A stretch of 64,000 nucleotides of DNA, taken from the NCBI RefSeq assembly GCF_000768315.1, contig NZ_AQQX01000007.1, forward strand, positions 1 through 64,000, written 5' to 3'. Of this stretch, positions 24,093 through 42,631 are shown one piece after another; position 1 is the stretch's first letter; the number at the start of each line of letters is the position of its first letter. The stretch is from Pseudooceanicola atlanticus (GTDB lineage Bacteria > Pseudomonadota > Alphaproteobacteria > Rhodobacterales > Rhodobacteraceae). The position numbers and the translations under genes are program-made. The notes under the pieces were generated by a model. The model saw only the letters and a program-made list of their open reading frames with translations. It searched no databases and had not been told where the DNA came from.

Positions 24093-24929
24093 TTACTCCT
24101 GCCCGCGCAGGGCGCGGCGTTCGATGAATTTGAGGAGGACGAGGGACACGAAGCTGAGCGACAGCAGGCAGATCGACCAGGCGGCGGCCTTGGACATGTT
24201 GAAGGTCGCCATGACCTCCTGGTAGATCTGCGAGCCCACGAATTTCTCGGTGATCCCGCCCAGCAGAAGCGGCGTGACGATGGCGCCGATGCAGGCCAGG
24301 TAGATCACCATTAGAGAGGTGAAGACCCCGGGCAGCGAGAGAGGGAAGACGATGGTCCGGAAGGTCTGCCAGCGACCGGCGCCGAGGACGCGGGACGCCT
24401 CTTCCAGGTTTTCCTCGATCGACAAGAGTGACGCCAGGATCGAGATCACCGCGAAGGGGATCAGTACATGAGTCAGACCGATGATGATACCCGTGTCGTT
24501 GAACATCAGCTTGAGCGGCGTGTCGATCACGCCGACCCAGCCGAGGAAGGCATTCACGAACCCCTTGGGGCCCAGCAGGATGATCCAGCCATAGGTCCGC
24601 ACCACGAGGCTGACGAGCCAGGGCACCAGCACCACGATCAGCAGCATGTTGCGGTGCTTTTCCGACCGCCAGAGCAGCAGGGAGATCGGATAAGCCAATA
24701 GCACCGCCAGCAGCGCCACGATGATCGAGGTCAGGACGGTGCGGTAGAAGACGACGTGGTAGTCGGGCCGTGCGAGGATCTGTTCGAAATATTTCAGGGA
24801 AAACCCGCCGCGATCCACGAAAGCGTTGGAAAACAGCAGGATGACGGAGGTGAAGAAGAGCCCCAGCACGATCAGCGCGGGCAGCAGCATCAACCCCTTG
24901 GCGAGGGTGGGTCTTTCGCCGGTGTTCAT
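24093..24929 (-). CDS. ABC transporter permease (PotB-like)
   Basis: Inner-membrane subunit of importer 2, 278 residues with about six helices and the EAA-like loop NLEEASRVLGAGRWQTFRTI near residue 170. The start overlaps the ATPase stop by four bases. It is paralogous to 19059-19898, including the SLVVRTYGWIILLGPKGFVNAFL segment that matches SIVVRSYGWVVILGPRG there. Confidence 0.9.
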   Translation of the reverse strand: MNTGERPTLAKGLMLLPALIVLGLFFTSVILLFSNAFVDRGGFSLKYFEQILARPDYHVVFYRTVLTSIIVALLAVLLAYPISLLLWRSEKHRNMLLIVVLVPWLVSLVVRTYGWIILLGPKGFVNAFLGWVGVIDTPLKLMFNDTGIIIGLTHVLIPFAVISILASLLSIEENLEEASRVLGAGRWQTFRTIVFPLSLPGVFTSLMVIYLACIGAIVTPLLLGGITEKFVGSQIYQEVMATFNMSKAAAWSICLLSLSFVSLVLLKFIERRALRGQE

Positions 24930-26140: not shown

Positions 26141-26167
26141 GTCCTGAAGGGCGTGTCGGAGGGTGGG

Positions 26168-27205
26168 TCAGTTCCCGACCTGGGACATCATCTGCTCGAC
26201 CATGTTGATGCGGTCTTCGTGGTTGTCCCAGACGGTCTTCCAGTCGGGGATGTACATCTTCTTCATCAGCTCTTCGCGGGTGGTGCCGAGGGTATCGAGG
26301 TATTCCTGCGGCAATTGCGCGGTGTTGTTGGTCGGGATGCCGCCACCGTGCACCGAAACCGAGACCTGGCTTTCGGCGGAGGCGAGGTAGTTCATGTATT
26401 TCGCCGTTTCCTCGCGGTTCCCGGACCCTTTGGGCGACACGACCGCGTAGGCCAGCATCAAACCGCCTTCTTCGGGGATGGCGATCTTGATGTTGTCCTG
26501 CCCCTCGTTCTGAAGCTGCCAGACGCGGGTGGAATAGAAGGGCACGGCCGTGACCTCTCCGGTGCCGAGCAGCGTGTTCATATGCGCCAGCGAGGTGTAG
26601 GTGGTCAGGGAATTCGAGATCAGCCCCTTCAGGATGTCGACGCCGGGTTCGATATTGGCGGCATCGCCGCCTGCCGCATGGGCATACATCGTCAGGTCAT
26701 AGGCGGCGGCGTAGACGGGCCGGGTGATCGCCAGCTTGCCCTTCCATTTGGGGTCGGCAAGACTTTTCCAGCTCTTGAAGTCCTCGGCGTCGGCCAGGTC
26801 TTCGTTGTAGACGATGCCGTAATAGGAAAAGTAGGTCGGGATGCCGACGATCAGGCCTTCGTCGTTGCGGATCACGACCTCGGGCGGCAGGTTCTTCACC
26901 TCGGGGATTTCCTCGTCCGTGAAGCCCTGAAGCAGGTCTGTGCCCGACAGGCCGACGCCTTCGAAGAAGGTCACCGTGACGGCGTTGTATTGCGAGGCAG
27001 TCGGCGAGCGGACGGCACCGGCCGTGTTGGGCACTTCGGTCACGCGGGCATCGACGCCGGTCTTTTCCATGAAGGGCTTCTGGACGTATTCCTCGAGCTT
27101 CCTCGCGCCGCCGCCGCCCCAGGTGGCGTGGATCACCTCAGCCGTGGCGGTCGTGGCGAATGTTGCGGCCAATCCGAACGCCGCTGCTGTGATGTAAGTG
27201 TTCAT
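26168..27205 (-). CDS. ABC transporter substrate-binding protein (PotD-like)
   Basis: Periplasmic receptor of importer 2, 345 residues, with a Sec-type signal (AAAFGLAATFATTATA) cleaved near residue 22. Mature features are IHATWGGGG, PTYFSYYGIVYNEDLA, WKSLADPKWKGKLAITRPVYA and VPFYSTRVWQLQNEG. It is paralogous to 17894-18952. ATG at 27205 was chosen because GGGGAG lies just upstream and a clean signal peptide starts there. It leads its operon and is followed by a terminator-like hairpin. Confidence 0.88.
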   Translation of the reverse strand: MNTYITAAAFGLAATFATTATAEVIHATWGGGGARKLEEYVQKPFMEKTGVDARVTEVPNTAGAVRSPTASQYNAVTVTFFEGVGLSGTDLLQGFTDEEIPEVKNLPPEVVIRNDEGLIVGIPTYFSYYGIVYNEDLADAEDFKSWKSLADPKWKGKLAITRPVYAAAYDLTMYAHAAGGDAANIEPGVDILKGLISNSLTTYTSLAHMNTLLGTGEVTAVPFYSTRVWQLQNEGQDNIKIAIPEEGGLMLAYAVVSPKGSGNREETAKYMNYLASAESQVSVSVHGGGIPTNNTAQLPQEYLDTLGTTREELMKKMYIPDWKTVWDNHEDRINMVEQMMSQVGN

Positions 27206-27532
27206 TTCGCTCCCCATTGATTGCGGTCGGACATCTGCCGAGCCTTGGTATCGCTTCACTGTGCGAGGGGTTCAGCGGCCCTGTAAAATTCAATAGTCGG
27301 GTCATTTTATAATCCAGGGTTATGTATCCGCGCTGGTGGGGCGCTGCCGGAAATCCGTGTCCCTGCATTCTGCGGCGCAGCAAGAAGGCATGCGTTTCGA
27401 CCCGCAATATCGGGTGTTTGCGGTGGGCTGACAGATAACCTGCCGGAATGGCATGGCGTCCGCTTTGCATTATTCGGCGCGGTCCGAACCGAATACCGTT
27501 CCCGGAATGCGAAACGAAAACGGGATTTTGGA
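27206..27532. promoter_or_regulatory. divergent promoter region, importer 2 / ThDP enzyme
   Basis: This 327-base AT-richer gap separates divergent operons. It contains ATAAT-CCAGG-GTTAT (27309-27323), a LysR-like dyad about 105 bases upstream of the importer-2 receptor gene, and a TAAAATTC word near 27284 that recurs in the 32312-32461 gap. I see no convincing gene in it. Confidence 0.45.
27309..27323. promoter_or_regulatory. LysR-like dyad, ATAA-N7-TTAT
   Basis: ATAATCCAGGGTTAT has ATAA/TTAT arms and matches ATAACCAGAAGTTAT (16543-16557) at both ends and at internal C and G positions. Both copies lie upstream of paralogous importer operons. Operator function is inferred. Confidence 0.4.
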
Positions 27533-29068
27533 ATGATCGGAGCGGAAGTCGTCGTCAGGACGTTGGACAGGTGCGGGGTCGATGTCTGTTTCGCCAATCC
27601 CGGTACCTCGGAAATGCACGTCCTGTCGGCACTGGACAGCGCCCCCGACATGCGCCCGGTTCTGGTCCTGCAGGAAAACGTGGCCACCGGGGCGGCGGAC
27701 GGGTTCGCACGGATCGCAGGGCGACCGGCGGCGACGTTGCTGCACCTGGGGCCGGGGTTGGCGAACGGATTGTCGAACCTGCACAACGCTTCGCGCGCGC
27801 TGAGCCCGGTGGTGAACATCGTGGGCGATCACGCGACCGGGCACCGCCGGCTGGATGCGCCGCTGACCTCGGATATCCGGTCGCTGTCGGAGACCGTCAG
27901 CGTCTCGACCCGCTGCGCCATGCCCGGGCGCGGCATCGGGGCAGAAACCGCGGCGGTGGTGTCGGACAGCCTTGGGCCGGTGCCGGGGGTGGCGACGATG
28001 CTGCTGCCTGCCGATGCCGCGTGGCAGGAGGCCGCGGACGACATCGGCAGCCTGCCCGTCAGCCGGGCCGAGGCGCCGGAGGTCGATCATGGCCGGATCG
28101 CGCAGGCCCTGCGCCAGCCCGGCGCGGTTCTGATGCTGGGCCATGACGCCGTGCGGGGTGAGCCCTTGCGCATTGCCGGCCGTATCGCGGCGGCGACGGG
28201 GGCCGCGCTGATGGCGCAGACGACCACCCCGGTGACGGATCGCGGGGCGGGGCGCGTGGCGCTGGAACGCCTGCCGTTCAATCCCGATCAGGCGCGGCAA
28301 CGGCTGGCCGGGGCTCCGGTTGTCGTTCTGGCCGGGGCGCGGGCGCCGGTTGCCTTTTTCGCCTATCCCGGAACGCCTGGGCGCCTGACCGCGCCGGACA
28401 CCACGGTGATCGAACTGTGCCCGCCCGAGGTCACGGCGAGCGACCCTCTCTCTGCCCTGGCGGAGGCCTGTGGCGCCACGGAGGATCCGGTTGTGCAGCC
28501 GCCGCGCCTTCCCGACCTGCGGGGCGGAGCGCTGGATGCGGCCAAGGTGGGGGCCGTGCTGGCGCGCCACCTGCCCGAAGGCGCCATCGTCGTGGACGAG
28601 GCGATGACCAATGGCGTGCCGATTGCCGCCGCCACGGCCGCCGCCGCGCCGCATCGCTGGTGCCAGAACATGGGCGGGTCGATCGGATATGGCGCGCCGC
28701 TGGCCATCGGCTGTGCGGCGGCGGACCCGACTGTGCCGGTCGTGGCCCTGATCGGGGACGGCTCGGCCATGTACACGATCCAGGCGCTGTGGACGCAGGC
28801 GCGCGAGAACCAGAACGTGACCACGATCATACTCGCCAACCGGTCCTACCGTATCCTGCAGGCCGAGGTCGCCAAGATGGACCCGACCCAGAGATCCAAC
28901 GCGATGGACGACATGCTGCGGATCGATGCGCCGGTGCTCGACTTCGTGGCGATGGCGCAGGGGATGGGCGTCGCGGCGGATCGCGTGTCAACCGCGGAGG
29001 AACTGGACCGCGTGTTGCGTGACGCCTTTGTCCAGCCGGGGCCGCGACTGATCGAGGTGTCGTTGTGA
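27533..29068 (+). CDS. thiamine diphosphate-dependent enzyme (acetolactate synthase / benzoylformate decarboxylase family)
   Basis: A cytosolic ThDP enzyme of 511 residues. It has three domains: Pyr (catalytic Glu48 in VLQENVATGAADGFAR), a middle domain, and PP (GDGSAMYTIQALW near residue 408, with the downstream LANRSY completing the metal motif). It resembles the acetolactate synthase large-subunit-like and MdlC-like proteins that decarboxylate 2-oxo acids. No small regulatory subunit is adjacent, which argues against valine synthesis. It overlaps the DauA-like dehydrogenase by four bases (GTGA), so a 2-oxo acid made by that enzyme is a natural substrate; this is inference. Confidence 0.82.
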   Translation: MIGAEVVVRTLDRCGVDVCFANPGTSEMHVLSALDSAPDMRPVLVLQENVATGAADGFARIAGRPAATLLHLGPGLANGLSNLHNASRALSPVVNIVGDHATGHRRLDAPLTSDIRSLSETVSVSTRCAMPGRGIGAETAAVVSDSLGPVPGVATMLLPADAAWQEAADDIGSLPVSRAEAPEVDHGRIAQALRQPGAVLMLGHDAVRGEPLRIAGRIAAATGAALMAQTTTPVTDRGAGRVALERLPFNPDQARQRLAGAPVVVLAGARAPVAFFAYPGTPGRLTAPDTTVIELCPPEVTASDPLSALAEACGATEDPVVQPPRLPDLRGGALDAAKVGAVLARHLPEGAIVVDEAMTNGVPIAAATAAAAPHRWCQNMGGSIGYGAPLAIGCAAADPTVPVVALIGDGSAMYTIQALWTQARENQNVTTIILANRSYRILQAEVAKMDPTQRSNAMDDMLRIDAPVLDFVAMAQGMGVAADRVSTAEELDRVLRDAFVQPGPRLIEVSL

Positions 29069-30201
29069 CCACGATTGCGGATGTCATCATCATCGGGGCC
29101 GGGATCGCGGGGGCCTCTCTCGCCTGGCGATTGCGCGGGACGCGGCGGGTCGTGCTGCTGGAGGCAGAGGACAGCCCGTCGCACCATTCCACCGGCCGCT
29201 CGGCAGCGATGATGACACCCTACGCAGGCGCGCCGCTGATCCGTGCCGCCAGCGTGGCCAGCCGTGCGTTCCTGCTGGCCCCGTCGGACGGGTTCAGTGA
29301 CGCGTCTCTGACAACGCCGCGTGGCGTGCTGCGCCTGGCGGGCGAGGCGGAGCTGGCCGCGCTGGATGCCGCCCATGACGACGGGATTGCGGAGGGGCGT
29401 CCGTTCAAGCGGATGACCCGGGCCGAGCTGATGGCAATGGGGCTGCCGATCACGGACCGCGTGGTCCGTGGGCTGCTGGATACGGAGCCGCGCGACATCG
29501 ATGTCGACGCGCTGCACCGGGGCTTTCTGAAAGGGTCCGGGGCGGAGCTGTGGTTGAAAGCTCCTGCTGTTTCCATCAGTCGGAAAGGGCCTGACTGGGT
29601 GGTCGAGACACCCAAAGGGGTCGTCACCGCGCCCGTCTTAGTCAATGCGGCGGGGGCCTTTGCGGACCGGGTCGCTGGTTTGGCGGGCGTGACGCCCCGC
29701 GGTCTGACCCCGTGCAAACGAACCATCGCCCATTTCGATCTGCCATCACATCGGACGGGCAAATGGCCGTTGATCGCCGACCCGACCTTCAGCTTCTACG
29801 CGAAACCCGAGGCGACGGGGCTGGTTGTCTCGCCCTCCGACGCCAGCCCGGTCGACCCGGGAGAGGTCTGGCCGGATGACATTGACATCGCGGTGGCGGT
29901 GGACCGGATGCAAGGCTGGCTGGATATCGCGGTGCGCCGCCCGAGCGCCGCATGGTCCGGCCTGCGCAGTTTCTTCGTGGATGAAGACCCGGTTGCGGGC
30001 TTCGATCCCGAGGTTCCGGGGTTTTTCTGGTATGCCGGGCAGGGGGGATACGGGATCCAGTCCTCTCCGGCCCTGTCGCGGGTGGCTGCGGCGATCCTGT
30101 GCGATGCCCCCATCCCGGCCGATCTTTCCGACGCTGGCCTGACGCGCGATGCGCTGTCGCCGGCGCGGCTGTCTCAATCATCAAGGAAGGACCCGATATG
30201 A
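29065..30201 (+). CDS. FAD-dependent D-amino-acid dehydrogenase-like protein (DauA/DAO family)
   Basis: A flavoenzyme that strongly resembles D-arginine dehydrogenase (DauA) in layout, 378 residues from GTG at 29065. It has VIIIGAGIAGASLA for FAD, SHHSTGRSAAMMTPYAG near 40, SFYAKPEATG near 235, WSGLRSFFVDEDPVAGF near 300 and GQGGYGIQSSPAL. Positions that bind the substrate carboxylate in DauA as I recall them (two Arg, one Tyr) are kept, but the DauA active-site His and loop Tyr are replaced (Met49, Ala54). It overlaps the ThDP gene (GTGA) and the M81 gene (ATGA). It likely oxidises a D- or alpha-amino acid to the 2-oxo acid. Confidence 0.82.
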   Translation: MTTIADVIIIGAGIAGASLAWRLRGTRRVVLLEAEDSPSHHSTGRSAAMMTPYAGAPLIRAASVASRAFLLAPSDGFSDASLTTPRGVLRLAGEAELAALDAAHDDGIAEGRPFKRMTRAELMAMGLPITDRVVRGLLDTEPRDIDVDALHRGFLKGSGAELWLKAPAVSISRKGPDWVVETPKGVVTAPVLVNAAGAFADRVAGLAGVTPRGLTPCKRTIAHFDLPSHRTGKWPLIADPTFSFYAKPEATGLVVSPSDASPVDPGEVWPDDIDIAVAVDRMQGWLDIAVRRPSAAWSGLRSFFVDEDPVAGFDPEVPGFFWYAGQGGYGIQSSPALSRVAAAILCDAPIPADLSDAGLTRDALSPARLSQSSRKDPI

Positions 30202-31661
30202 CCCGTTTGTTCATCGGCGGTATTGCCACCGAAACCAATTCGTTCAGCCCCATCCCCACGACCATGAGCGATTTCGAAATCGGCGGTATATACGAGGGCA
30301 CCGCGACGCAGGCGGAGCCGCAGCATTTCACCGCGCCCCTTCATGTCTGGCGCAAACGGGCCGAGGCAGAGGGGATCGAGGTAGTCGAGGGTCTGATGGC
30401 CGCCGCGCAGCCCGGGGGCACCACGCTGGGCGCTGTCTGGAGCGACCTGCGCGACCGACTTCTGCAGGATGTGCGCCGGGCCGGGCCGCTGGATATGATC
30501 CTGCTGAACCTGCATGGCGCGATGATCGCGACGGATGAGTTCGACTGCGAGGGCGAACTGTTGGCGGGGATCCGCGAGATCTGTCCCGATGCGGTGATCG
30601 GCTGCGAGCTGGACCTGCATTGCCACCTGACCCGGCGCATGATGCAGGTCACGGACCTGATCGTGCCTTACAAGGAATACCCGCATACCGACATCGTCGA
30701 AGGGGCCGAGGACCTCTGGTCACTGGCCCTGCGGATGCAACGCGGGGAGATCAGGCCGGTCGGTGCCACGGCCGAGTGCAACATGCTGTCGGTCTGGCAC
30801 ACGACCAAGGCGCCGATGAGCGATTTCGTCGCCCGCATGTCGGCGCTGGAACAGGACGGGACGGCTCTGTCCGTGAGTTTCTGCCATGGCTTTGCCTTGG
30901 GGGATTTGCCGGAGCTTGGATCGCGCATGCTGGTTTACGGGGATGGCGACGGGGCGGCGGCGCAGGACCTGGCCGACACGCTGGCCCGAGAGATATGGGA
31001 CATGCGCGACCAGACGCGCACCCGGATGATGACGGAGGCCGAGGCAGTCAAGGCTGCGCTTGCCGTCGGCAATGGGCCTGTCGTCATCGCCGATGTCGCG
31101 GACAATCCCGGCGTCGGGGCCGGCGCCGACAGCACCTACCTGCTGAGCGCGCTGATCGACGCGCAGGTCAAGGGCGCAGTGGTCGGGCTGATGTACGATC
31201 CGATGGCCGTCGCGACCGCGGCCGGTGCGGGCGAAGGGGCAGAGCTGACGCTGCGGATCGGCGGCAAATTCAGCCCGCGGTCGGGGCCGCCGCTCGATCT
31301 GGATGTGCAGGTGTTGCGGGTGGTGGACGACCTGGCCCAGACCACGGTGGCCGGGCAGACCATGTCCTGCGGCCAGGTGGTTCTTGTCGAGACGACAGGC
31401 GGTATCCGGATCGCGCTGGCCGACCGGCGCGTGCAGACCTTCCACCCGGATGCCTTCACCGGTCTGGGCGTCGACCTGGACGAGGCGCCGGTCATCGTGG
31501 TCAAGTCGACCCAGCATTTCCACGCGGGTTTTGCCCCGGTCGCGGCGGAGATCCTCTATGCGCGCTCGCCCACGGCGGTGCAGTTCGAGGGGCCGGAAAA
31601 CCCCTACAAGCATCGCGACGGCAATTACTGGCCGCTCACCGAAACACCGGTTCCGGCATAG
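30198..31661 (+). CDS. M81 family metallopeptidase (MlrC-like), copy 1
   Basis: A zinc-type hydrolase of the family named for microcystin-degrading MlrC, 487 residues. Motifs are TETNSFSPIPT near the start, LNLHGAMIATDEFDCEGELL near 97, CELDLHCHLTRRM near 135 (probable metal ligands), YKEYPHTD near 156 and VKSTQHFHAGFAPVAAEI near 435. ATG at 30198 overlaps the preceding stop (ATGA) and has AAGGAAGG upstream. It is a full-length paralogue of 36496-37962. The family cleaves peptide or amide bonds; most members have unknown substrates. Confidence 0.88.
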   Translation: MTRLFIGGIATETNSFSPIPTTMSDFEIGGIYEGTATQAEPQHFTAPLHVWRKRAEAEGIEVVEGLMAAAQPGGTTLGAVWSDLRDRLLQDVRRAGPLDMILLNLHGAMIATDEFDCEGELLAGIREICPDAVIGCELDLHCHLTRRMMQVTDLIVPYKEYPHTDIVEGAEDLWSLALRMQRGEIRPVGATAECNMLSVWHTTKAPMSDFVARMSALEQDGTALSVSFCHGFALGDLPELGSRMLVYGDGDGAAAQDLADTLAREIWDMRDQTRTRMMTEAEAVKAALAVGNGPVVIADVADNPGVGAGADSTYLLSALIDAQVKGAVVGLMYDPMAVATAAGAGEGAELTLRIGGKFSPRSGPPLDLDVQVLRVVDDLAQTTVAGQTMSCGQVVLVETTGGIRIALADRRVQTFHPDAFTGLGVDLDEAPVIVVKSTQHFHAGFAPVAAEILYARSPTAVQFEGPENPYKHRDGNYWPLTETPVPA

Positions 31662-31714
31662 GTCGTTTCAGGTTCCGCATGAAGGCATGCAGTCAGGGAC
31701 CGGGCGGGGGGCGG

Positions 31715-32311
31715 TCAGACCGATTGCACCTGGGGTTCGGTGCAAATGCACAGAACCTCGGCCTGGCCCTCGCCGGTACTGACGTAGCCATGGGCCATCT
31801 GGCTGTCGAGGTAGACACTGTCCCCCTTGTGCAGGATCAGCGGTTCGTAATGTTCGGTGTGGACTTCGACCGAGCCTTCCAGCACGTACAGGAACTCTTC
31901 ACCGCCATGGCGGAACAGCTCTCCGAAGCTCTTGAGGTCACGGGCTTTCAGCTTTGCCAGGATCGGGACGATGAACTTGTTCTTCACGTCCGGGCACAGG
32001 TAGAAATAGTCGTAATTCTCGGTGCTTATCAGCGCGCCTTCACCCTTGTAGGCCGGAGCGAGCCGGCTGTTCGGCGCGGTCATTTCCTTGGTGGCGCGGT
32101 TGTCGGTTCCCGACACCAGGTCGCCGATCTGCACCGACAATCCGTCACACAACTTCAGGATGACATCGAGCGTGGGCGAAAGCGCCCCGTTCTCGATTTT
32201 GGAGATGGTGGAGACCGAAACGCCGGACCGGCTGGCCAGGTCTGCGAGGGTCAGTTGTCCGGCCTTGCGCAGCGTTCTGAGGCGTTGGCCGACTTCGCTT
32301 TTGTACGACAT
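31715..32311 (-). CDS. XRE family regulator with C-terminal cupin
   Basis: A 198-residue regulator. A helix-turn-helix at about residues 9-63 (LRTLRKAGQLTLADLASRSGVSVSTISKIENG) precedes a cupin at about 120-190 (HGGEEFLYVLEGSVEVHTEH, KGDSVYLDSQMAHGY). The cupin would bind the inducer. It sits between two modules, convergent with the ThDP-DauA-M81 operon and divergent from the DauA-TRAP-M81 operon, and could control both. The shared divergent gap (32312-32461) is AT-rich with two dyads. Such regulators often govern amine and amino-acid catabolism (PuuR type). Confidence 0.9.
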   Translation of the reverse strand: MSYKSEVGQRLRTLRKAGQLTLADLASRSGVSVSTISKIENGALSPTLDVILKLCDGLSVQIGDLVSGTDNRATKEMTAPNSRLAPAYKGEGALISTENYDYFYLCPDVKNKFIVPILAKLKARDLKSFGELFRHGGEEFLYVLEGSVEVHTEHYEPLILHKGDSVYLDSQMAHGYVSTGEGQAEVLCICTEPQVQSV

Positions 32312-32461
32312 GACAAGATCCCCCCTGACGGTCGGCCCGCTTTTTCCACAAAACTACCGTCCGGCATAGCTGTAAATCAACGAAATTTTCGTATGTGAGA
32401 ATTTTTCTTGTAATAAAATTCGAATCTGGCAAGGCTCGGGGCACAGGCGAAAAGGGAAGCC
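32312..32461. promoter_or_regulatory. divergent promoter region with two dyads
   Basis: AT-rich gap of 150 bases. It holds ACGAAA-T-TTTCGT (32380-32392) and GAATTTT-N9-AAAATTC (32399-32405 / 32415-32421), both perfect. They lie 40-80 bases upstream of the DauA-like gene start and are good candidate operators for the XRE-cupin protein. Confidence 0.6.
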
Positions 32462-33607
32462 ATGAGCGCGCAAGACAATATTCAGACAGAGATCGTGGTG
32501 ATCGGTGCCGGGATCGCGGGGGCCTCGGTCGCGGCAGAACTGGCGGCGACCCGGCAGGTTGTGCTGCTGGAGATGGAAAGCCAGCCGGGCTATCACACGA
32601 CCGGACGCTCCGCCGCGGTCTTCGCCCCATGCTATGGGCCCGCGCCGATCCGGCACCTGACCCGCGCATCGGAGGCGTTCTTTCGTAATCCGCCTGAGGG
32701 GTTCAGCGCGGCCCCGCTGTTTTCACCGCGGTCGATCCTGATGATTGCCCGTCCCGAACAGGTTGCGGCGCTGGATCAACTGACCGAAGCCGTATCCGCC
32801 GAAACCGTCGTCCGCCGACTGCAAGGGGCGGAGGTGACGCAAGCGCAGCCCTTGCTGCGTGAGGGCTATGCCAGCGACGCGATGCTGGACGAACTGGGGC
32901 AGGATATCGACGTGCATGCCCTGCATCAGGGTTTCCTGCGGATGTTCCGTGCAAGGGGCGGCAAGCTGATGACCGGGGCCGGGGTGACGGCGCTGGATCG
33001 GGACGGCCAAGATTGGCGGATCGAGACGCCGCAGGGCCAGTTGCGGGCGCCCATCGTGGTGAACGCTGCCGGCGCCTGGGCTGAAGAGATCGGCACGCTG
33101 GCCGGGGCAGAGCGGATCGGCCTGACGCCCAAGCGCCGCACGGCGCTGATGGTCGCCGATCATCCCGACATCGCCACCGCCGCATTGCCGATCACGGTCG
33201 ATGTGGAAGAGGAATTCTACCTCAAGCCCGATGCGGGCCGCCTGCTGATTTCCCCGGCGGACGAGACGCCGTCGGCCCCCTGTGACGCCCAGCCCGAAGA
33301 GCTGGACATCGCCATCTGCGCGGACCGGATCATGACCGCCTTCGACCTTGAGATCCGGCGGATCGAAAACAGCTGGGCCGGCTTGCGCAGCTTCGTGCCC
33401 GATGGCGCGCCGGTGGTGGGCTATTCCGACCGCGCGCCGGCCTTCTTCTGGCTGGCGGGGCAGGGCGGATACGGCATCCAGTCGGCGCCCGGCATGGCGC
33501 AATTCGCAGCCTCGGGCATCCTGGGACAGGACGTGCCGTCGCATATCATGGAAACCGGGTTCGACCCCGACAGCGTCCGGCCTGGCCGGTTGAAGGCGGC
33601 CGCATGA
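32462..33607 (+). CDS. FAD-dependent D-amino-acid dehydrogenase-like protein (DauA family)
   Basis: A closer DauA-like flavoenzyme, 381 residues. FAD motif VVIGAGIAGAS near 13, QPGYHTTGRSAAVFAPCYG near 41, LTPKRRTALMV near 220, EEEFYLKPDAG near 242, NSWAGLRSFVPDG near 300 and GQGGYGIQSAPGM near 340. The Arg and Tyr residues that hold the amino-acid carboxylate in DauA, as I recall them, are kept, as is the loop Tyr (Tyr58), but the active-site His is Val53. It overlaps the TRAP permease by four bases (ATGA), so it is coupled to import. Predicted role: oxidise an imported D-amino acid to the 2-oxo acid. Confidence 0.85.
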   Translation: MSAQDNIQTEIVVIGAGIAGASVAAELAATRQVVLLEMESQPGYHTTGRSAAVFAPCYGPAPIRHLTRASEAFFRNPPEGFSAAPLFSPRSILMIARPEQVAALDQLTEAVSAETVVRRLQGAEVTQAQPLLREGYASDAMLDELGQDIDVHALHQGFLRMFRARGGKLMTGAGVTALDRDGQDWRIETPQGQLRAPIVVNAAGAWAEEIGTLAGAERIGLTPKRRTALMVADHPDIATAALPITVDVEEEFYLKPDAGRLLISPADETPSAPCDAQPEELDIAICADRIMTAFDLEIRRIENSWAGLRSFVPDGAPVVGYSDRAPAFFWLAGQGGYGIQSAPGMAQFAASGILGQDVPSHIMETGFDPDSVRPGRLKAAA

Positions 33608-34887
33608 TCTGGCTGGTCCCCGTCGTCTCGCTGGTCTTCCTCGCTTCGGGGTTGGCGCTGGCCTATGTGATCGGTGGATCGGCCATGCTGGCCTTCGTGG
33701 CCACGGAAAAGACCCGCTACCTGGCGATCATGCCGCAGAAAGTGTTCTCGCAGATCAGCGTGTTTTCCCTGCTGGCGATGCCGCTTTTCATTCTCGCCGG
33801 CGAGGTGATGAACCGGGGCGGCGTGACCAAGGCGCTGATCGACCTGTCGATGGCGCTGGTGGGACGGGTCCGGGGCGGGCTGGGCCATGTGAACATCATG
33901 ACATCCGTCTTCTTTGCCGGGATCTCGGGATCGGCGGTGGCGGACGCGGCGGCGCTGTCGAACACGCTGGTCCCGGCCATGAAGGAACGCGGCTACACGG
34001 CGGCCTATGCCGGGGCGATCACCGCAGCGTCGTCGATCATCGGGCCGATCGTGCCGCCCTCGATCATCCTGATCTTCTATGGCGCGCTGATGCAGACCTC
34101 GGTCGCGGCGCTGTTCGTGGCGGGGATCCTGCCCGGGCTGGTGCTGGCCGGGGCGCTGTTTGCCGTCAATGCCTGGTATGCCTGGCGCGAGGATCATCCG
34201 CGGGTCGAAAAGGGCGATGCCCCGCCCGTTCTGCCCGCGATCTGGAAGGCGCTGCCCGCCATGGCGCTGCCCTTCATCATCGTGGGCGGTATCGTCTTCG
34301 GCTGGATGACCCCGACCGAGGCCGCCGCCGTGGCCGTGGTTGCCGCCGCCGCCGTGGCTTGGTTCTACGAGGGGCTGAACCGGTCCGACCTCTGGGAAGC
34401 GCTGTCGCGCACCGCCGTCCTGACCGGGTCGATTTTCATGATCCTATGCGCCGTCGCGGCCTTCGGCCACCTGGCGGCCTTGGAACGCATTCCGCAGGCG
34501 CTGGCCGCGCTGGTGGACCGGATGGGGCTGGGCCCGGTGGGCTACCTGCTGGTGATGAACGTGCTGTTCATCATCGCGGGAATGGTGCTGGACGTGACCG
34601 TCGCGCTGGCCCTGCTGGTGCCGCTGCTGGCGCCTGTCGCGCTGGCCAACGGCGCGGACCCGGTGCACCTGGGCATCGTCATCTGCTTCAATCTGTCGAT
34701 CGGCCTCGTCTCTCCGCCACTGGGCGGGTGCCTTCTGATCGTGTCGACCGTCACCGGCGTCCGCTACTGGGAACTGGCCCGCAAGGTCATCCCCTTCGTG
34801 ATCGCCGAGATCGTGGTGCTGGGCCTGCTGGTCGCGGTGCCGGATATCAGCCTGCTGCTGCCCCGTCTGATGGGGCTGTGGAACTGA
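33604..34887 (+). CDS. TRAP transporter large permease (DctM type)
   Basis: The 12-helix membrane subunit of a TRAP importer driven by an ion gradient, 427 residues. Family features are PLFILAGEVMNRGG near 60, FFAGISGSAVADAAALS near 105, ITAASSIIGPIVPPSIILI near 140 and SIGLVSPPLGGCLLIVS near 365. It starts inside the preceding dehydrogenase stop. The gene order M-P-Q is unusual, as most operons read P-Q-M. A TRAP receptor and small subunit follow. Confidence 0.92.
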   Translation: MIWLVPVVSLVFLASGLALAYVIGGSAMLAFVATEKTRYLAIMPQKVFSQISVFSLLAMPLFILAGEVMNRGGVTKALIDLSMALVGRVRGGLGHVNIMTSVFFAGISGSAVADAAALSNTLVPAMKERGYTAAYAGAITAASSIIGPIVPPSIILIFYGALMQTSVAALFVAGILPGLVLAGALFAVNAWYAWREDHPRVEKGDAPPVLPAIWKALPAMALPFIIVGGIVFGWMTPTEAAAVAVVAAAAVAWFYEGLNRSDLWEALSRTAVLTGSIFMILCAVAAFGHLAALERIPQALAALVDRMGLGPVGYLLVMNVLFIIAGMVLDVTVALALLVPLLAPVALANGADPVHLGIVICFNLSIGLVSPPLGGCLLIVSTVTGVRYWELARKVIPFVIAEIVVLGLLVAVPDISLLLPRLMGLWN

Positions 34888-34946
34888 CAAGACACTCAAT
34901 AACAAACTGAAAACCAATAGAGAAAATCAACGGAGAGGAAAACAAC

Positions 34947-35918
34947 ATGAACATGAGGACATGCATCGCCGCGTCGGCCGCGGCCATCCTGCTGGCCCTG
35001 CCGGCCACCGCCGAGGTCAAGATCGCCTTGGACGGCCCGCCGGACATGGAGCAATCGGGCACCTATGTCTGGGCCCATACCTTTGCCGAACACCTGAAGG
35101 CCAACGGGATGGAGGCGGTCGAATACGAGCGCAACTCCTTGGGCGAAGAAGCCGAGCGCCTGGACCAGGTCAGCACGGGCCTTCTGGAAGTGTCGATGTC
35201 GGACGCCAAATCGGCGGGTCAACTGGACGGAACGATCTTCGGGTCGATGATGCCGTTCTTCTTTGCCGATGGCGATGAACTGGACATGGCGCTGGAAGAC
35301 GGCGGCATGCTGGAAATGATCAACGAGGGCACGACGCCGCATGGCGTGCGGGTGCTGGACCTTGTCTATCTCGGCCTGCCCTCGGGCATCTTCACCACCG
35401 AAACGCCGGTCCGCACCTTCGAGGATTTCTCGGGCCTGCGAATGCGCGCGCTGGACGAGCTGCAGATCCAGACCTTTGAACAATGGGGCGCCAAGGGTAC
35501 CATCGTGTCCTGGTCCGAAGTGCCGAACGCCCTGCAGACGGGTGTGGCAGAGGGCTACCTGAACCCGCCCTTCGTGCCGCTGGTCTATGGCCATACCTCG
35601 TTCATCAACTACTTCACCGACGTGAAGACCTCGGCCTCTGTCCGGATCGCGATTGCGTCCGAGGACTGGTACCAGTCGCTGTCGGACGAGGAACGCGCCG
35701 TGGTCGATGAAGGCGCGCAGCTGGCACATGACGCCAACCGGACCTTCGTGAAGGAACGCGAGCAGGTCTTCGACGATCTGGAAGCCGCCGGTATCGAGGT
35801 GATCCGCCTGACCGAGGAAGAGCGCGCCAAGTTCCGCGAAGCCTCCCAGCCGCTTTACGAGGCTGTCGACATGCCCGAGGGCGCGTTCGAGGCCTGGAAA
35901 GCCGCGGTCGGTCGGTGA
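34947..35918 (+). CDS. TRAP transporter substrate-binding protein (DctP type)
   Basis: Periplasmic receptor, 323 residues, with a Sec signal (CIAASAAAILLALPATA, cleaved near residue 22). The ligand-anchoring Arg region reads DFSGLRMRALDELQ near residue 168, followed by EVPNALQTGVAEGYLNPPF near 190. A 59-base A-rich leader and a strong GGAGAGGAAAACAAC site precede its ATG, the only gene in this operon with such a leader, so it is likely made in excess. Its stop overlaps the small permease start (GTGA). Confidence 0.9.
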   Translation: MNMRTCIAASAAAILLALPATAEVKIALDGPPDMEQSGTYVWAHTFAEHLKANGMEAVEYERNSLGEEAERLDQVSTGLLEVSMSDAKSAGQLDGTIFGSMMPFFFADGDELDMALEDGGMLEMINEGTTPHGVRVLDLVYLGLPSGIFTTETPVRTFEDFSGLRMRALDELQIQTFEQWGAKGTIVSWSEVPNALQTGVAEGYLNPPFVPLVYGHTSFINYFTDVKTSASVRIAIASEDWYQSLSDEERAVVDEGAQLAHDANRTFVKEREQVFDDLEAAGIEVIRLTEEERAKFREASQPLYEAVDMPEGAFEAWKAAVGR

Positions 35919-36499
35919 GCACCCTCCGCGCCATAGCAAGAGGGCTGGACCGGGTTTCGGTCCAGCTGAACCGCGTCGGGCTGGTCGTCGCCGTGCTGGC
36001 AGTGCTGGTGATGCTGGCCGCCGCGTCCTGGCAGGTGATTGCCCGCTACGTGCTGTCCCAGCCCCCTATCTGGACCGAGGAACTGGCGCGGTTCTCGATG
36101 GTCTGGGCGGGGCTGATGGGGGCATCCTGCGCATTCCGCTTCAAGGCCGATCCGACGCTCTTTCCCGAGGCGCTGAAGGCGACGGGGGCGGTCGGGGTGA
36201 TCGTCACCCTGATCCGCAGCGCGGGCACCCTGATCTTTGTCTGCGTGTGCATCTGGTTCTGCGTGTTCGGCCCGGGCATGAATATCGCACGCGGCTATAT
36301 CGGCCGCCTTGCCGGGCGCCAGGCGGAAACCATGGACGTGCCGATGCTTGTCTTCGGCATCGCCATCCCGATCGCCTTCACTTTCATCGTCATCCACGTG
36401 CTCGCCGATATCGCGCGGCTGGTCCTGCCGCAGGACAGGCCCGCGTCCGAGCCGGATGTGGACCCTGATACGGACCCTGATACGGACCCTGCCACATGA
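35915..36499 (+). CDS. TRAP transporter small permease (DctQ type)
   Basis: Small membrane subunit, 194 residues from GTG at 35915, with about four helices (LVVAVLAVLVMLAAASWQVIARY, VIVTLIRSAGTLIFVCVCIW and LVFGIAIPIAFTFIVIHVLADI among them). It contains the conserved EELARFSMVWAGLMGASCAF near residue 50. The C terminus is an odd acidic tail made by 12-base repeats (DPDT DPDT DPAT) and overlaps the next start. Confidence 0.88.
   Translation: MSTLRAIARGLDRVSVQLNRVGLVVAVLAVLVMLAAASWQVIARYVLSQPPIWTEELARFSMVWAGLMGASCAFRFKADPTLFPEALKATGAVGVIVTLIRSAGTLIFVCVCIWFCVFGPGMNIARGYIGRLAGRQAETMDVPMLVFGIAIPIAFTFIVIHVLADIARLVLPQDRPASEPDVDPDTDPDTDPAT
36461..36496 (+). repeat. 12-base tandem repeat at 3' end of TRAP small permease gene
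   Basis: GACCCTGATACG occurs at 36461-36472 and 36473-36484, followed by a diverged third copy. It keeps frame and gives a DPDT-type tail directly ahead of the overlapping ATG of the next gene at 36496. Likely slippage-prone. Confidence 0.9.
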
Positions 36500-37962
36500 A
36501 GATGTTCATGGCCTCGCTGGCCACCGAAACGAACTCATTCTCGCCCATCCCGACGGGGTGGAGCGGGTTCAAGGAACACCTCTATTCCAAGACTGCCTCG
36601 CGCGGGGAAGCCGGGCTATACGCGACCGCCGTCACCGCCTGGCGCAACATGGCCGAGGACAAGGGCTGGGAGGTCGTTGAGGGGCTGGCCACCTATGCGC
36701 AGCCCGCCGGGCCGACCGTGCGTGCCGTCTACGAGACAATGCGCGACGACATTCTTTCTGACCTGACGGCCGCGATGCCGGTCGACGTGGTCCTGCTGTC
36801 GATGCACGGCGCGATGATCGCCGAGGGGTATGACGATTGCGAGGGCGACATGCTGCAACGCGTGCGGGCCATAGTCGGGCCTGACGCCGTGGTGGGCCTT
36901 GAGATCGACCCGCATTGCCACCTGACCGAAGAGATGCTCGAGGCCGCCACCGCCATCATCTGCTACAAGGAATATCCCCATATCGACATCACCGAGCGGG
37001 CGGTCGACCTGTTCCACCTCTGCGCCGATGCGGCAGAAGGGAAGACGCGGCCGGTGATGCGCGATTACGATTGTCGCATGATGGCGATGTATCACACCCC
37101 GTTCGAGCCGGTCCGCGGCTATGTCGACCGGATGAGCGCGATGGAGGGGCAGGGCGGTATCCTGTCCGTGTCGCTGGCCCATGGTTTTCCCTGGGGCGAC
37201 AACCCGCGTGTCGGGACCCGGACGCTGGTGATCACCGATGGCGATACCGAGCTGGCCGCGACCCGCGCGCGAGAGCTGGGCGAGGAGTTGTGGGAGATGC
37301 GGCACGATCTGCGCAGCTTCCCCTCGATGGAGGCCGGTCTGGACCGGGCCGTTGCGGCCAATGCCTACCCGGTGGTGCTGGCTGATTTCGCCGATAATGC
37401 GGGCGGCGGGGCACCGTCGGATTCCACCTTCGTGCTGCGCGCGGCGCTGGACCGGGGTCTGACCGATATCGCCTTCGGCATCTTCTGGGACCCGGTGCTG
37501 GTCGGGATGTGCATCGACGCCGGTGAAGGCGCGGTCCTGCCGATGCGCATTGGCGGCAAGATCGGCCCGATGTCGGGCGATCCTGTCGATCTGACCGTCA
37601 GGGTGCGGGGGATCGCGCGCGACGCGGTGCAGCACCTGGGCACGGCGGCCATGGGCATGGGCGATGCCGTCTGGCTGGAGGCGCCGGGCGGGGTGCATAT
37701 CGTGGTCAACACGCAGCGCACCCAATGTTTCCACCCCGAAGCCTTCGAATGCCTGGGGCTCGACCTGTCGACGTTGAAGATCGTCGTGGTGAAATCCTCG
37801 CAGCATTTCTACGACGGCTTCGCGCCGATCGCGTCCGAGGTGATCCACCTGGCGACGCCGGGGGCGATCCCGCCGGATTATTCGATCATCCCCTACACCA
37901 AGCGCGACGACAATTTCTGGCCCAAGACAGAGAACCCATTCAAGGACGAGGCATTGGCATGA
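36496..37962 (+). CDS. M81 family metallopeptidase (MlrC-like), copy 2
   Basis: Second MlrC-like hydrolase, 488 residues. It shares TETNSFSPIPTGW, LSMHGAMIAEGYDDCEGDML near 97, GLEIDPHCHLTEEM near 135, YKEYPHIDITE near 156 and VKSSQHFYDGFAPIASEV near 435 with copy 1. It overlaps the TRAP small permease (ATGA) and the amidohydrolase gene (ATGA). Being inside an import operon, it probably hydrolyses the imported peptide- or amide-like compound; substrate unproven. Confidence 0.88.
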   Translation: MKMFMASLATETNSFSPIPTGWSGFKEHLYSKTASRGEAGLYATAVTAWRNMAEDKGWEVVEGLATYAQPAGPTVRAVYETMRDDILSDLTAAMPVDVVLLSMHGAMIAEGYDDCEGDMLQRVRAIVGPDAVVGLEIDPHCHLTEEMLEAATAIICYKEYPHIDITERAVDLFHLCADAAEGKTRPVMRDYDCRMMAMYHTPFEPVRGYVDRMSAMEGQGGILSVSLAHGFPWGDNPRVGTRTLVITDGDTELAATRARELGEELWEMRHDLRSFPSMEAGLDRAVAANAYPVVLADFADNAGGGAPSDSTFVLRAALDRGLTDIAFGIFWDPVLVGMCIDAGEGAVLPMRIGGKIGPMSGDPVDLTVRVRGIARDAVQHLGTAAMGMGDAVWLEAPGGVHIVVNTQRTQCFHPEAFECLGLDLSTLKIVVVKSSQHFYDGFAPIASEVIHLATPGAIPPDYSIIPYTKRDDNFWPKTENPFKDEALA

Positions 37963-39452
37963 CCCACGATATCCTGATCCGCAACGGTCGCGTGATGGAC
38001 CCCGAGACCGGGTTCGACGAGGTCTGCGACGTCGCGATTTCGGGCGGCACCATCGCGAAGATCGGCACGGAACTGGGCGCCGCGAAGGACGAGATCGACG
38101 CGACCGGGCTGGTCGTGTCGCCGGGCTTCATCGACATCCACGCCCATGGCCAGTCGGTGGCTGCTGACCGGATGCAGGCCTTCGATGGGATGACAACCGC
38201 GCTGGAGCTTGAGGTCGGGTCGCTGCCGGTGGGGGAATGGTACGATCACCAGGCGGGTGTGCCGCGGGTGCTGAATTACGGAACCGCCGCGGCCTGGGGC
38301 TTTGCCCGCCGGGCGGCCTTTGGCGGGTTCACACCGGATGGCACGCGAAATCCGATCGACCACATGGCGTCCTCCAACGACCTGCGCTGGACGACCGACG
38401 CGGCCAGCCCGGACCAGACCGATGCCGTTGTGTCCCTGACCCGACAGGCGCTGGAGGAAGGCGCGATCGGGATCGGCATGCCCAACGGATACCTTCCCGG
38501 GGCCGGGTTGAAGGAATTGTCGTTGATCTGCGACCTGGCGGCAGAGTTCGGCCGACCGACCTATACCCACATCGCCTTCATGGGGAATATCGACCCCAAG
38601 AGTTCCGTCGATGCCTATATCCGCCTGATCGGGCTTGCCGGCGCGACGGGTGCGCATATGCATATCTGTCACCTGAATTCGACCAGCCTGCTGGATATCG
38701 ACCGGGTGGTTCAGCTGATCGGCAAGGCGCAGGCGCAGGGCCTGCCCGTGACGACCGAGGCCTATCCCTACGGCGCCGGGTCAACGGTTGTCGGGGCCGG
38801 GTTCTTCAAGGACCCGGACTTCACCAAGCGCACGGGCAGCGAGTATTCCGCCATCGAACTGGTCAAGAACCTGCACCGCTTCACCGACCGCGACGATCTG
38901 CTGAAGGCCGCCCATGAGGATCCGAGCGACCTGGTGATGTGGCATTACCTCGATGTCGAGGCCAATGACGATCACCGGCGGATGCTGGATGCCTCCGTCA
39001 CCTATCCCGGTGCCTCCATCGCATCGGATGCGATGCCATGGGTGCGGCCGGACGGGTCGATCTACGAAGGCGACGAGTGGCCGCTGCCGGCCGAGGTCTC
39101 GGCGCATCCCCGGTCTTCGGGCACCTTCACGCGGTTCCTGCGCGAATATACCCGCGAGCGCGAGGTGATGCCGCTGATGGAGGCGCTGGCAAAATGCACG
39201 ATCTACCCGGCCAGCGTCATCGAAGGCTGTGCCCCGCAGATCGCCCGCAAGGCGCGGCTGCGCGAAGGGTTTGACGCGGATGTCACGATCTTCAATCCTG
39301 CCACGGTGACCGACCGCGCGACCTTCACCGAAATGAACAAGGCCTCCGAGGGGGTCGTTCACCTGTTGGTCGGCGGCACCCGGGTGATCGTGGATGGAAC
39401 GCTGGACACCTCGCAATCCCCCGGCCAGCCGATCCGCTGCCCGGTGTCATGA
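37959..39452 (+). CDS. N-acyl-D-amino-acid deacylase-family amidohydrolase
   Basis: A metal-dependent amidohydrolase of the D-aminoacylase group (COG3653-like), 497 residues. It has GFIDIHAHGQ (His61, His63), a His in PTYTHIAF near 204, GAHMHICH near 233-238 and a catalytic Asp in IASDAMPWV near 355. The usual GNCG bridging segment is replaced by LELEVGSLP, so it is not a standard D-aminoacylase and its metal bridge differs. ATG at 37959 overlaps the M81 stop. Likely cleaves an N-acyl or amide bond near a D-configured centre; this is inference from family. Confidence 0.82.
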   Translation: MTHDILIRNGRVMDPETGFDEVCDVAISGGTIAKIGTELGAAKDEIDATGLVVSPGFIDIHAHGQSVAADRMQAFDGMTTALELEVGSLPVGEWYDHQAGVPRVLNYGTAAAWGFARRAAFGGFTPDGTRNPIDHMASSNDLRWTTDAASPDQTDAVVSLTRQALEEGAIGIGMPNGYLPGAGLKELSLICDLAAEFGRPTYTHIAFMGNIDPKSSVDAYIRLIGLAGATGAHMHICHLNSTSLLDIDRVVQLIGKAQAQGLPVTTEAYPYGAGSTVVGAGFFKDPDFTKRTGSEYSAIELVKNLHRFTDRDDLLKAAHEDPSDLVMWHYLDVEANDDHRRMLDASVTYPGASIASDAMPWVRPDGSIYEGDEWPLPAEVSAHPRSSGTFTRFLREYTREREVMPLMEALAKCTIYPASVIEGCAPQIARKARLREGFDADVTIFNPATVTDRATFTEMNKASEGVVHLLVGGTRVIVDGTLDTSQSPGQPIRCPVS

Positions 39453-40357
39453 CGGTTCCCATCCTGCTGGTCACCGGGTTCCTCGGGGCCGGAAAGACGA
39501 CCTTCATCAACGCGTTGCTGCAGGACAGTGCGGGGCTGCGCATTGCCGCGATCGTCAACGATTTCGGCAGCATCAACATCGACGCGGCCCTGCTGGAAAC
39601 CGCGACGGACGAGGTGATCGGGCTGAAGAACGGCTGCATCTGCTGTTCGCTGCAGGGCGACCTGCTGCGCACGCTCCGCACCGTTCTGCGCGAGGGCGAG
39701 CCGGACCTGATCGTGATCGAGGCCAGCGGCGTGGCCGATCCGCAGGGGATCATGTCCGCGCTGATGGACCCGGTGCTGTGGCAGGCGGCGCGGCTGGATA
39801 CGGTGCTTTGCCTTGTCGATGCGGAGGACGTGTCGCGGGATATTGGCCGTTGGGAGGATCCGCTGTGGAAGTCGCAGGTGGCCGGGGCCGATATCGTCCA
39901 GCTGAGCAAGGTCGAAAGCTGCGAGGGTGCGGTGGAAGCGTTGGCGACGCGGCTGCATGCCATGGGCAAACCGGCGGTCTTTGGCCAGGATGGCACGACG
40001 CTGGCCATCCGGGATCTGATCGGTCGGGCTCATCCGCGGAGCGTCTCGGGCGCGGCTCCGGTCATCGACAGTGGCCGGTTTGCGACGCTGGAATGGACGC
40101 ATGACGCGCCGGTTTCGATGCCGAAGTTCCAACGGCTGATCGGGACCGAGGCGGGCGTCGTTCGGGCCAAGGGTTTCCTGAGCTTTCACGAAAAACCCGG
40201 CGAGACGCTGCTGTTCCAGCTGGTTGGTCGCCGCGCGACGCTGGCCCCGGCAGACAGGGATCAGAAGGGCTGCGGCCTGGTTCTGATCGGCGAGGCAGAC
40301 GCCTTCGACCCTGAGGCCACGCGTCGCCGGATGGATGCCGCCCTGATCGAGGGCTGA
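39449..40357 (+). CDS. COG0523 (CobW/YjiA) metal-chaperone GTPase
   Basis: A G3E GTPase family member thought to deliver metal, often zinc, to client enzymes; 302 residues. It has Walker A GFLGAGKTT (10-18), the metal-binding CxCC as Cys63-Ile-Cys65-Cys66, EASGVADP near 91 and a CobW C-terminal domain (VRAKGFLSFHEKPG). The guanine-specificity NKxD is replaced by SKVE (153-156), so nucleotide choice may differ. It is the last gene of the TRAP-M81-deacylase operon (ATGA overlap), where these metalloenzymes are its probable clients. Confidence 0.86.
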   Translation: MTVPILLVTGFLGAGKTTFINALLQDSAGLRIAAIVNDFGSINIDAALLETATDEVIGLKNGCICCSLQGDLLRTLRTVLREGEPDLIVIEASGVADPQGIMSALMDPVLWQAARLDTVLCLVDAEDVSRDIGRWEDPLWKSQVAGADIVQLSKVESCEGAVEALATRLHAMGKPAVFGQDGTTLAIRDLIGRAHPRSVSGAAPVIDSGRFATLEWTHDAPVSMPKFQRLIGTEAGVVRAKGFLSFHEKPGETLLFQLVGRRATLAPADRDQKGCGLVLIGEADAFDPEATRRRMDAALIEG

Positions 40358-41386: not shown

Positions 41387-41397
41387 GATCTCTCTCC

Positions 41398-41415
41398 TAT
41401 ACCTATTACGGTATA
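41398..41415. promoter_or_regulatory. GbpR-type dyad TATACC-N6-GGTATA
   Basis: Perfect six-base arms with a six-base spacer, 12 bases upstream of the gbpR ATG and about 140 upstream of the chvE-like ATG. The position suits autoregulation by GbpR and control of chvE. Confidence 0.55.
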
Positions 41416-42619: not shown

Positions 42620-42631
42620 TCTATCCTCCCT

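Follow-up and report, generated by a model that had tools for sequence, protein, structure and literature searches.

Two gene modules that lie side by side in Pseudooceanicola atlanticus probably serve to use D-amino acids locked in amide bonds, i.e. N-acyl-D-amino acids or dipeptides with a D-residue: the compound would be imported, its D-amino acid released by a zinc hydrolase of the M81 family and then oxidized by a flavoprotein resembling the FAD dehydrogenase DauA. The modules, here called A and B, were studied in a stretch of 64,000 nucleotides (positions 1-64,000 of contig NZ_AQQX01000007.1, assembly GCF_000768315.1), hereafter the window. The M81 family is best known for MlrC, which degrades a cyanobacterial toxin. 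The observation that carries the proposal is one of genomic context: M81 genes stand beside genes for D-amino-acid enzymes far beyond chance.

M81 genes and their neighbours

Among 149 genomes of the order, all from one family, a search for M81 at a threshold of E 1e-60 gave 32 places in 26 genomes, which merging of tandem genes reduced to 30 loci. A gene for a DauA-like enzyme, or for a D-amino-acid-type enzyme dependent on pyridoxal phosphate (PLP), is found within 7 kb, the distance retained for linkage, of 20 of these loci, against about 0.04 expected under uniform scatter in genomes of 4.1 Mb. DauA-like genes account for 11 loci (0.03 expected) and PLP genes for nine others; seen from the other side, nine of 12 PLP places and 11 of 44 DauA-like places adjoin M81. 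A preliminary description of this DNA, made from its letters alone, had raised the doubt that M81, DauA-like and deacylase genes might rarely meet elsewhere, which the 11 DauA-like cases answer for M81 and the DauA-like genes. Linked loci cover 15 genera, the 30 loci not being independent of one another; in several of the enzyme counts, that of the DauA-like genes included, scoring was confined to the top 10 to 13 candidates of each genome, so that these counts may be low. The deacylase counted as a further partner in the preliminary description is a less regular one, for which the doubt holds in part: it is near five of the 30 M81 loci, and only four of 22 deacylase places are within 7 kb of M81.

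A wider set of fetched loci had 106 M81 hits, from which six identical ones were dropped; 17 of the remaining 100 were excluded for short flanks, leaving 83 rows flanked on each side by 5 kb or more (the partial hits L095 and L096 were left out, while tandem rows, and the two rows of the window, were counted separately). A DauA-like gene is present in 41 of these rows, a PLP gene in 11 and an M55 gene in one, making 52 with any of them. Importers of the TRAP (tripartite ATP-independent periplasmic), dipeptide-type ABC (ATP-binding cassette) or Pot-type ABC kind accompany 63. RidA is near 23 of the 83, which fits the proposed oxidation because Rid2 and Rid3 proteins deaminate the DauA product in vitro; the tested RidA subfamily does not (PMC5619798, for the sections used here). 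In a quick tree of 99 M81 proteins (one of the 100 was too short, and several branches are long), DauA-like neighbours turn up with each of the three importer types, TRAP, dipeptide-type ABC and Pot-type ABC, the subclades concerned being separate ones. The succession of import, M81 hydrolysis and DauA-like oxidation that the preliminary description had put forward draws strong comparative support from this linkage, from the separate subclades, from the three types of importer and from a D-aminoacylase present in Variovorax (see below); the substrates themselves we infer.

Layout of the two modules

The genes of the two modules are the following.

23291..24088, minus strand: ABC permease (PotC-like) of the module A importer; PF00528, PotC model 104 bits, below its cut-off of 326
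24093..24929, minus strand: ABC permease (PotB-like) of the module A importer; PF00528, PotB model 145 bits, below its cut-off of 348
24926..26089, minus strand: ABC ATPase (PotA/PhnT-like) of the module A importer; ABC_tran and TOBE_2
26168..27259, minus strand: substrate-binding protein (PotD/PhnS-like), divergent from the next gene; SBP_bac_8
27533..29068, plus strand: enzyme dependent on thiamine diphosphate (ThDP), module A; TPP_enzyme_N/C, PRK07586
29065..30201, plus strand: DauA-like FAD dehydrogenase A; DAO domain
30198..31661, plus strand: M81 zinc hydrolase A (M81-A); PF07364 and PF07171
31715..32311, minus strand: XRE-cupin regulator of module B; HTH_31 and Cupin_2
32312..32461, no strand: region between the XRE and DauA-like genes, candidate operator; 8-mers recurring across spacers
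32462..33607, plus strand: DauA-like FAD dehydrogenase B; match to Pseudomonas aeruginosa DauA (PaDauA, 3nyc) at 3e-90
33604..34887, plus strand: TRAP large permease DctM; PF06808 at 349 bits, TIGR00786 above cut-off
34947..35918, plus strand: TRAP receptor DctP; PF03480, model with a mean pLDDT (predicted local distance difference test) of 89.8
35915..36499, plus strand: TRAP small permease DctQ; PF04290
36496..37962, plus strand: M81 zinc hydrolase B (M81-B); match to MlrC (7ylq) at 3e-102
37959..39452, plus strand: amidohydrolase of subfamily PRK09061 (D-aminoacylase-related, Cys-less); NF006560
39449..40357, plus strand: COG0523 GTPase, probable metallochaperone; cobW and CobW_C, CxCC motif

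All genes named in the preliminary description are present at their coordinates and in the order given, family scans bear out their families, and the 4-base overlaps that it saw at nearly every junction are present at seven of the eight same-strand junctions (counted with the starts chosen at 30198 for M81-A and 37959 for the amidohydrolase), DctM and DctP being separated by 59 bases. Other parts of it had to be amended. Module A was described as a ThDP enzyme, a DauA-like protein and M81; these genes stand, and the list was incomplete, a divergent PotD-type ABC importer (23291-27259, minus strand), into which the module extends upstream, having been overlooked. The only importer named was the TRAP system, which need not supply both modules since module A has an ABC importer of its own. 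Finally, a single XRE-cupin regulator common to both modules has to be abandoned: the gene travels with module B and has no match in the module A loci of three other genomes (L206, L207 and L208). Because the PotD-type importer accompanies M81-A elsewhere, the comparison points to two separate M81 modules placed side by side, each with its own importer. Next to module B, a LysR gene (40385-41419, minus strand) adjoins a sugar uptake set, chvE-gguA-gguB-gguC, at 41540-46441, all four members of which exceed NCBIfam equivalog cut-offs.

Module A

The PotD-type importer adjoins M81-A in L206, L207 and L208, with 80-97% identity: 80-88% for the binding protein, 82-85% for the ATPase and 92-97% for the PotB-like permease, while the PotC-like permease has full-length matches beside M81-A in L207 (96%) and L208 (93%). 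Complete module A is carried by L208 (ThDP enzyme 76%, DauA-like protein 69%, M81 74-77%). L206 has the DauA-like gene (71%) and M81, with a ThDP match that spans just 11%, and L207 has the importer and M81 and nothing else of the module; on a Sulfitobacter plasmid, an M81-A orthologue (78%) stands without any other module A gene around it. Within the 149 genomes of the order, nothing besides the window exceeds 46% identity to M81-A, and 22 genomes of the genus likewise gave nothing. A search of 394 genomes of the family at E 1e-135 was passed by five, the window's own included, three of which (G279, G365, G287) have orthologues at 76-82% and the fifth a protein at 47%; these three, whose neighbourhoods show the ABC importer described above, rule out a module A confined to the window.

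Its ThDP enzyme matches the PRK07586 equivalog at 634 bits (cut-off 363), shows TPP_enzyme domains and has benzoylformate decarboxylase as its nearest entry in the PDB (1e-33), matches that place it in the benzoylformate decarboxylase or acetolactate synthase-like class. Further upstream (12469-21966), the window codes for an amidase, an AMP-dependent ligase and an AmaA-like FAD oxidoreductase, along with another importer of Pot type, of which the ATPase and permease were scanned. This oxidoreductase has an 81% match near module A in L208, where the ligase is also present in part (80%), the locus ending within it; since these two recur there, module A may belong to a larger catabolic island. 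A class III aminotransferase gene (PRK07483, above cut-off) at 21963-23294 overlaps the last importer permease by 4 bases; no match to it was found at the corresponding place in L208.

Module B

Scanning named genomes with M81-B returned 57 loci, identified by exact M81-B peptide patterns, so that close relatives are favoured. In 20 loci, the window included, M81 has the whole of module B around it at distances of up to 7 kb (regulator, DauA-like gene, three TRAP genes, M81, amidohydrolase and COG0523), with the window's gene order wherever order was shown; the gaps computed in this comparison for L098, L099 and L106 are not meaningful. As all these genes recur in 19 other loci (L044 among them, even though its amidohydrolase frame looks interrupted; L065 has a second M81), the grouping, judged on gene content, exceeds chance. 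The genera concerned include Aquicoccus, Sulfitobacter, Nitratireductor, Albibacillus, Amylibacter, Chachezhania, Acidimangrovimonas, Seohaeicola, Shimia and Roseivivax, and module B has all the appearance of an old unit. Two of the loci are on Sulfitobacter plasmids; in the window's own genome, a repC search gave six RP-C matches, none of them on the window contig (C45). Other relatives retain the DauA-like gene, TRAP and M81 without the amidohydrolase and COG0523 pair, some of them with tandem M81 genes.

The XRE-cupin gene diverges from the DauA-like gene in the window and across 37 other fetched spacers, some from duplicate loci. In the window this spacer (32312-32461) contains AT-rich repeats. 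Each of the 8-mers AAATTTTC, TACGAAAA and ATACGAAA, read on either strand, is present in 20 of the 38 spacers, duplicates included, and together they make a candidate operator, these counts being raw and uncorrected for background or relatedness.

The enzymes and the receptor

Residues E11, H104, D138, H140 and H162 of M81-B are invariant in 26 aligned rows, M81-A included, and correspond in alignment to the zinc-site residues E39, H133, D167, H169 and H191 of MlrC (numbering of the sections at hand of PMC9982164; also PMC12474180, in part). The structural model of M81-B (pLDDT 91.9) has template-modelling (TM) scores of 0.87 to MlrC (7ylq) and 0.83 to 3iuu, and a structure search with it retrieved no relative outside the M81 family at E <1e-3. 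The two proteins reach 356 and 321 bits with the MlrC model NF041767, far below its cut-off of 999, and their genomic setting is another one. Both are thus best described, on alignment, as M81 family members with an intact zinc site, M81-B having a predicted M81 fold, and not as MlrC microcystinase proper.

In the DauA-like flavoproteins (41, duplicate loci included), R222, Y249 and R305 of PaDauA are kept without exception; R305 and Y249 presumably have roles at the substrate site. E87, which we take to be a guanidinium partner, is replaced in all 41 (by Ile, Ala, Val, Ser or Gly). DauA-like B has Ile there and keeps G332 and Q336 as well; DauA-like A has Val, together with Ala for Y53 and Phe for E246, and is the exception among the 41 in not keeping E246. 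That residue is near the substrate guanidinium in PaDauA, an enzyme that accepts a broad range of D-amino acids (PMC10655190, for the parts used here). Since R222, Y249 and R305 are kept and E87 is replaced, recognition of D-amino acids by the DauA-like enzymes is likely, and a preference of DauA-like B for D-arginine less so. The D-arginine catabolism of Pseudomonas aeruginosa, where DauA is presumably paired with DauB in an operon, thus shares with the modules a DauA-type FAD dehydrogenase having these three residues. It differs from them in that family scans reveal no DauB-like gene in either module, in the loss of E87 and in the addition of importers and hydrolases.

The amidohydrolase of module B reaches 675.7 bits with NF006560 (PRK09061; cut-off 340), and its H61, H63, E83, E85, H204, H238 and D357 are invariant in 15 rows. 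Subtype V D-aminoacylases have a Cys/His/His metal site and a catalytic Asp (PMC12017989, from the sections used). The window enzyme shares with D-aminoacylase and N-acyl-D-glutamate deacylase (1m7j, 3gip) the amidohydrolase superfamily, the HxH motif, two His and the Asp. It differs from them in having Val for the defining Cys ligand, and we therefore reject its identification as a canonical D-aminoacylase; it scores 98 bits to 3gip, as against 607 to 1m7j for its Variovorax counterpart. The invariant Glu83 and Glu85 may replace the Cys as metal ligands; in the Acetobacter copies, a Cys stands two positions earlier.

The following gene codes for a COG0523 protein with a cobW GTPase domain, CobW_C and a CxCC motif (GCICCS), and its adjacency makes it a probable metallochaperone for the amidohydrolase. 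The two genes stand next to each other, with no M81 in the vicinity, in Tistrella, Acuticoccus and two further genomes (G035, G117), precede M81 in four loci of acetic acid bacteria and are downstream of it in Roseomonas, which is the distribution of what looks like a detachable pair. The acetic acid bacteria (L072, 2721-11470; L071, L081 and L089 alike) have in a row an RpiR-type regulator, an 807-residue protein, a CapA-like PGA_cap (PF09587) protein, the amidohydrolase, COG0523 and M81.

By sequence and by fold, the structures nearest to the TRAP receptor DctP are 4n8g and 4ngu (25-28% identity), which are presumably complexes with D-Ala-D-Ala, a candidate ligand of DctP; a literature search on these two entries found no relevant paper.

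Independent versions of the association

Variovorax, a betaproteobacterium, has M81 proteins 50-52% identical to M81-B. They belong to an operon with a divergent XRE gene, then DauA-like, M81, SBP5, DppB, DppC, two ATPases and an amidohydrolase. The latter has a GNCG motif in all six loci that reach the gene (the seventh, L077, ends before it), and in L078 its 607-bit match is to the Alcaligenes D-aminoacylase (AfDam). The operon appears, from these likenesses, to be an independent version equipped with an AfDam-type D-aminoacylase. In Frigidibacter (L090), a Cys-type D-aminoacylase follows M81 by 115 bases.

D,D-dipeptides are handled by known systems, the ddp operon and the M55 peptidase DppA. 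On an Ensifer canadensis plasmid (L168, 6802-18326), M81 adjoins an M55 gene of DppA type, below its model cut-off, and a permease there, of DdpC type, exceeds the D,D-dipeptide cut-off. This locus shares these genes with the ddp and M55 systems; the modules of the window differ, with TRAP and Pot-type ABC importers and no M55 gene. L168 also holds a flavoprotein resembling D-amino-acid dehydrogenases, an XRE gene, a D,D-dipeptide-type ABC importer and a creatininase-family gene. In Ruegeria and Seohaeicola (L061, 10001-18343; L062, L063), behind tandem M81 genes come RidA and a GlcD-like gene, then a gene of the indolepyruvate ferredoxin oxidoreductase family coding for 1152 residues, above the model cut-off in L061, whose product would consume a 2-oxo acid.

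A proposed route and what weighs against it

In module B, the TRAP system would import the conjugate and M81-B hydrolyse the amide, freeing the D-amino acid, which the DauA-like flavoprotein would oxidize to an imino acid and thence to the 2-oxo acid. A second acyl or cyclic form would be opened by the PRK09061 amidohydrolase, with the COG0523 GTPase as its probable source of metal, and the XRE-cupin protein would control the operon. Module A would apply the same chemistry to a related compound imported by the PotD-type system, its 2-oxo acid being decarboxylated by the ThDP enzyme. Amide-locked D-amino acids are the likely class of substrates; the sequences themselves show the gene content, its conservation and linkage, an intact zinc site and intact substrate residues of DauA type, while the compounds, the order of the steps, the metal target and the regulation are set out here as we infer them.

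Several observations weigh against this reading. Ten of the 30 M81 loci have neither a DauA-like nor a PLP enzyme within 7 kb, 31 of the 83 rows of the wider set have no DauA-like, PLP or M55 gene, and 33 of the 44 DauA-like places are away from M81. The ThDP enzyme is near one of the 30 M81 loci (one of 33 ThDP places), L208, which also has it, being outside that sample. In the amidohydrolase, Val86, invariant in 15 rows, is at the metal-ligand Cys position of D-aminoacylases, His and Asp being kept. DctP is only 27-28% identical to 4n8g. The best NCBIfam model for the PLP enzyme is the aldolase BhcC, at 201-207 bits for a cut-off of 690, so that this protein could be an aldolase or a deaminase. 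In the alignment with 7ylq, W59 and F67 of the Adda pocket of MlrC and E70, its proposed general base (PMC9982164), are not kept in M81-B and fall in a poorly conserved stretch; therefore the substrate and full mechanism of MlrC cannot be transferred. Finally, the DauA-like enzymes might act on other amines.

Alternative substrates

This last point can be pressed further. M81 might be a general amidase and the DauA-like enzyme an oxidase of a glycine-like, N-methylated or opine-type amine, the D-amino-acid connection being an effect of family names. To be sure, none of the NCBIfam models listed for the flavoproteins, 13 in the case of A and the best 25 of 26 in that of B, attains its cut-off, the weak matches include glycine oxidase, MnmC, sarcosine oxidase and others, and PotD-type importers often carry amines. 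We nevertheless hold this to be unlikely: in the PDB, DauA is the nearest solved relative of DauA-like B, at 306 bits against 76 for the next, a lead of 230 bits; the substrate-site residues of DauA are kept throughout the 41 proteins; and M81 also adjoins the PLP enzyme, the AfDam-type D-aminoacylase and M55.

Another candidate is an N-acylated amino-sugar acid (N-acetyl-D-glucosaminate from oxidized chitin, or a cell-wall fragment), deacetylated by M81 and oxidized by the DauA-like enzyme, a substrate that is formally an N-acyl-D-amino acid. It is suggested by a sister clade of M81, some 40-42% identical to M81-B. Six of its loci (L033, L036, L037, L039, L114, L117) have RpiR divergent from TRAP, M81, the PLP enzyme and RidA, the PLP enzyme being of fold-III type with alanine-racemase-N and D-serine-dehydratase domains. 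L036 and L039 add a kinase whose best NCBIfam models are 2-keto-3-deoxygluconate (KDG) kinases, below cut-off. Within 7 kb, L035, L115 and L116 have RpiR, the PLP enzyme, a GH20 hexosaminidase and NagA, and L033 and L037 also have GH20. These parts recall the ong cluster for N-acetyl-D-glucosaminate, which consists of RpiR, a hexosaminidase, the deacetylase OngB, the PLP deaminase OngC, RidA and KdgK, with importers of the SSS family and TonB receptors (PMC9537276, in the sections used here). With it the sister-clade loci have in common RpiR, RidA and a PLP enzyme of fold-III type, as well as the KDG-kinase-like gene in two cases. No D-aminoacylase-like gene is present in the fetched stretch of any of the nine PLP-type M81 loci, and M81 would for this reason fill the slot of OngB. 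By analogy of gene position, the sister clade is thus possibly engaged in an alphaproteobacterial amino-sugar-acid pathway.

For modules A and B themselves, the same substrate is rather improbable. They share with ong the logic of N-deacylation followed by D-amino-acid deamination, and differ in using a DauA-like flavoprotein in place of the PLP deaminase, M81 in place of OngB, and other importers. No match to the sister-clade PLP gene (query from L036) was found in the window's own genome at E 1e-50, family scans reveal no kinase, RpiR or GH20 among the genes of the two modules, and DctP has no more than 27-29% identity to the TRAP receptors of the sister clade. The ong-like position and modules A and B would nonetheless point the same way, namely to M81 as the enzyme that takes an acyl or peptidyl group off a D-amino acid. 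Degradation of cyanobacterial or other non-ribosomal peptides by an MlrC-like M81 is very improbable, even though MlrC is the characterized member of the family, given the scores far below its cut-off and the loss of W59 and F67 in M81-B; no search was aimed at mlrA or mlrB.

A possible role for the M81 family

Use of amide-locked D-amino acids by modules A and B would have consequences beyond Pseudooceanicola. Tentatively, and with the balance of chances still slightly on the other side, M81 proteins might form a widespread, unrecognized family of zinc enzymes that split N-acyl or peptidyl conjugates to release the D-amino acid and have no relation to either D-aminoacylase or OngB. They would have been fitted into TRAP, dipeptide-type ABC and Pot-type ABC uptake operons and have taken the place of OngB in an alphaproteobacterial amino-sugar-acid pathway, with MlrC as one specialized member. 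In our literature search, the portions of papers retrieved describe an M81 function only for MlrC, an M81 gene appearing elsewhere in an expression table. The chief novelty here is a testable role for the family. If it is true, many transport operons of marine and soil bacteria would gain a substrate class, and the recycling of organic matter rich in D-amino acids would gain a new enzyme.

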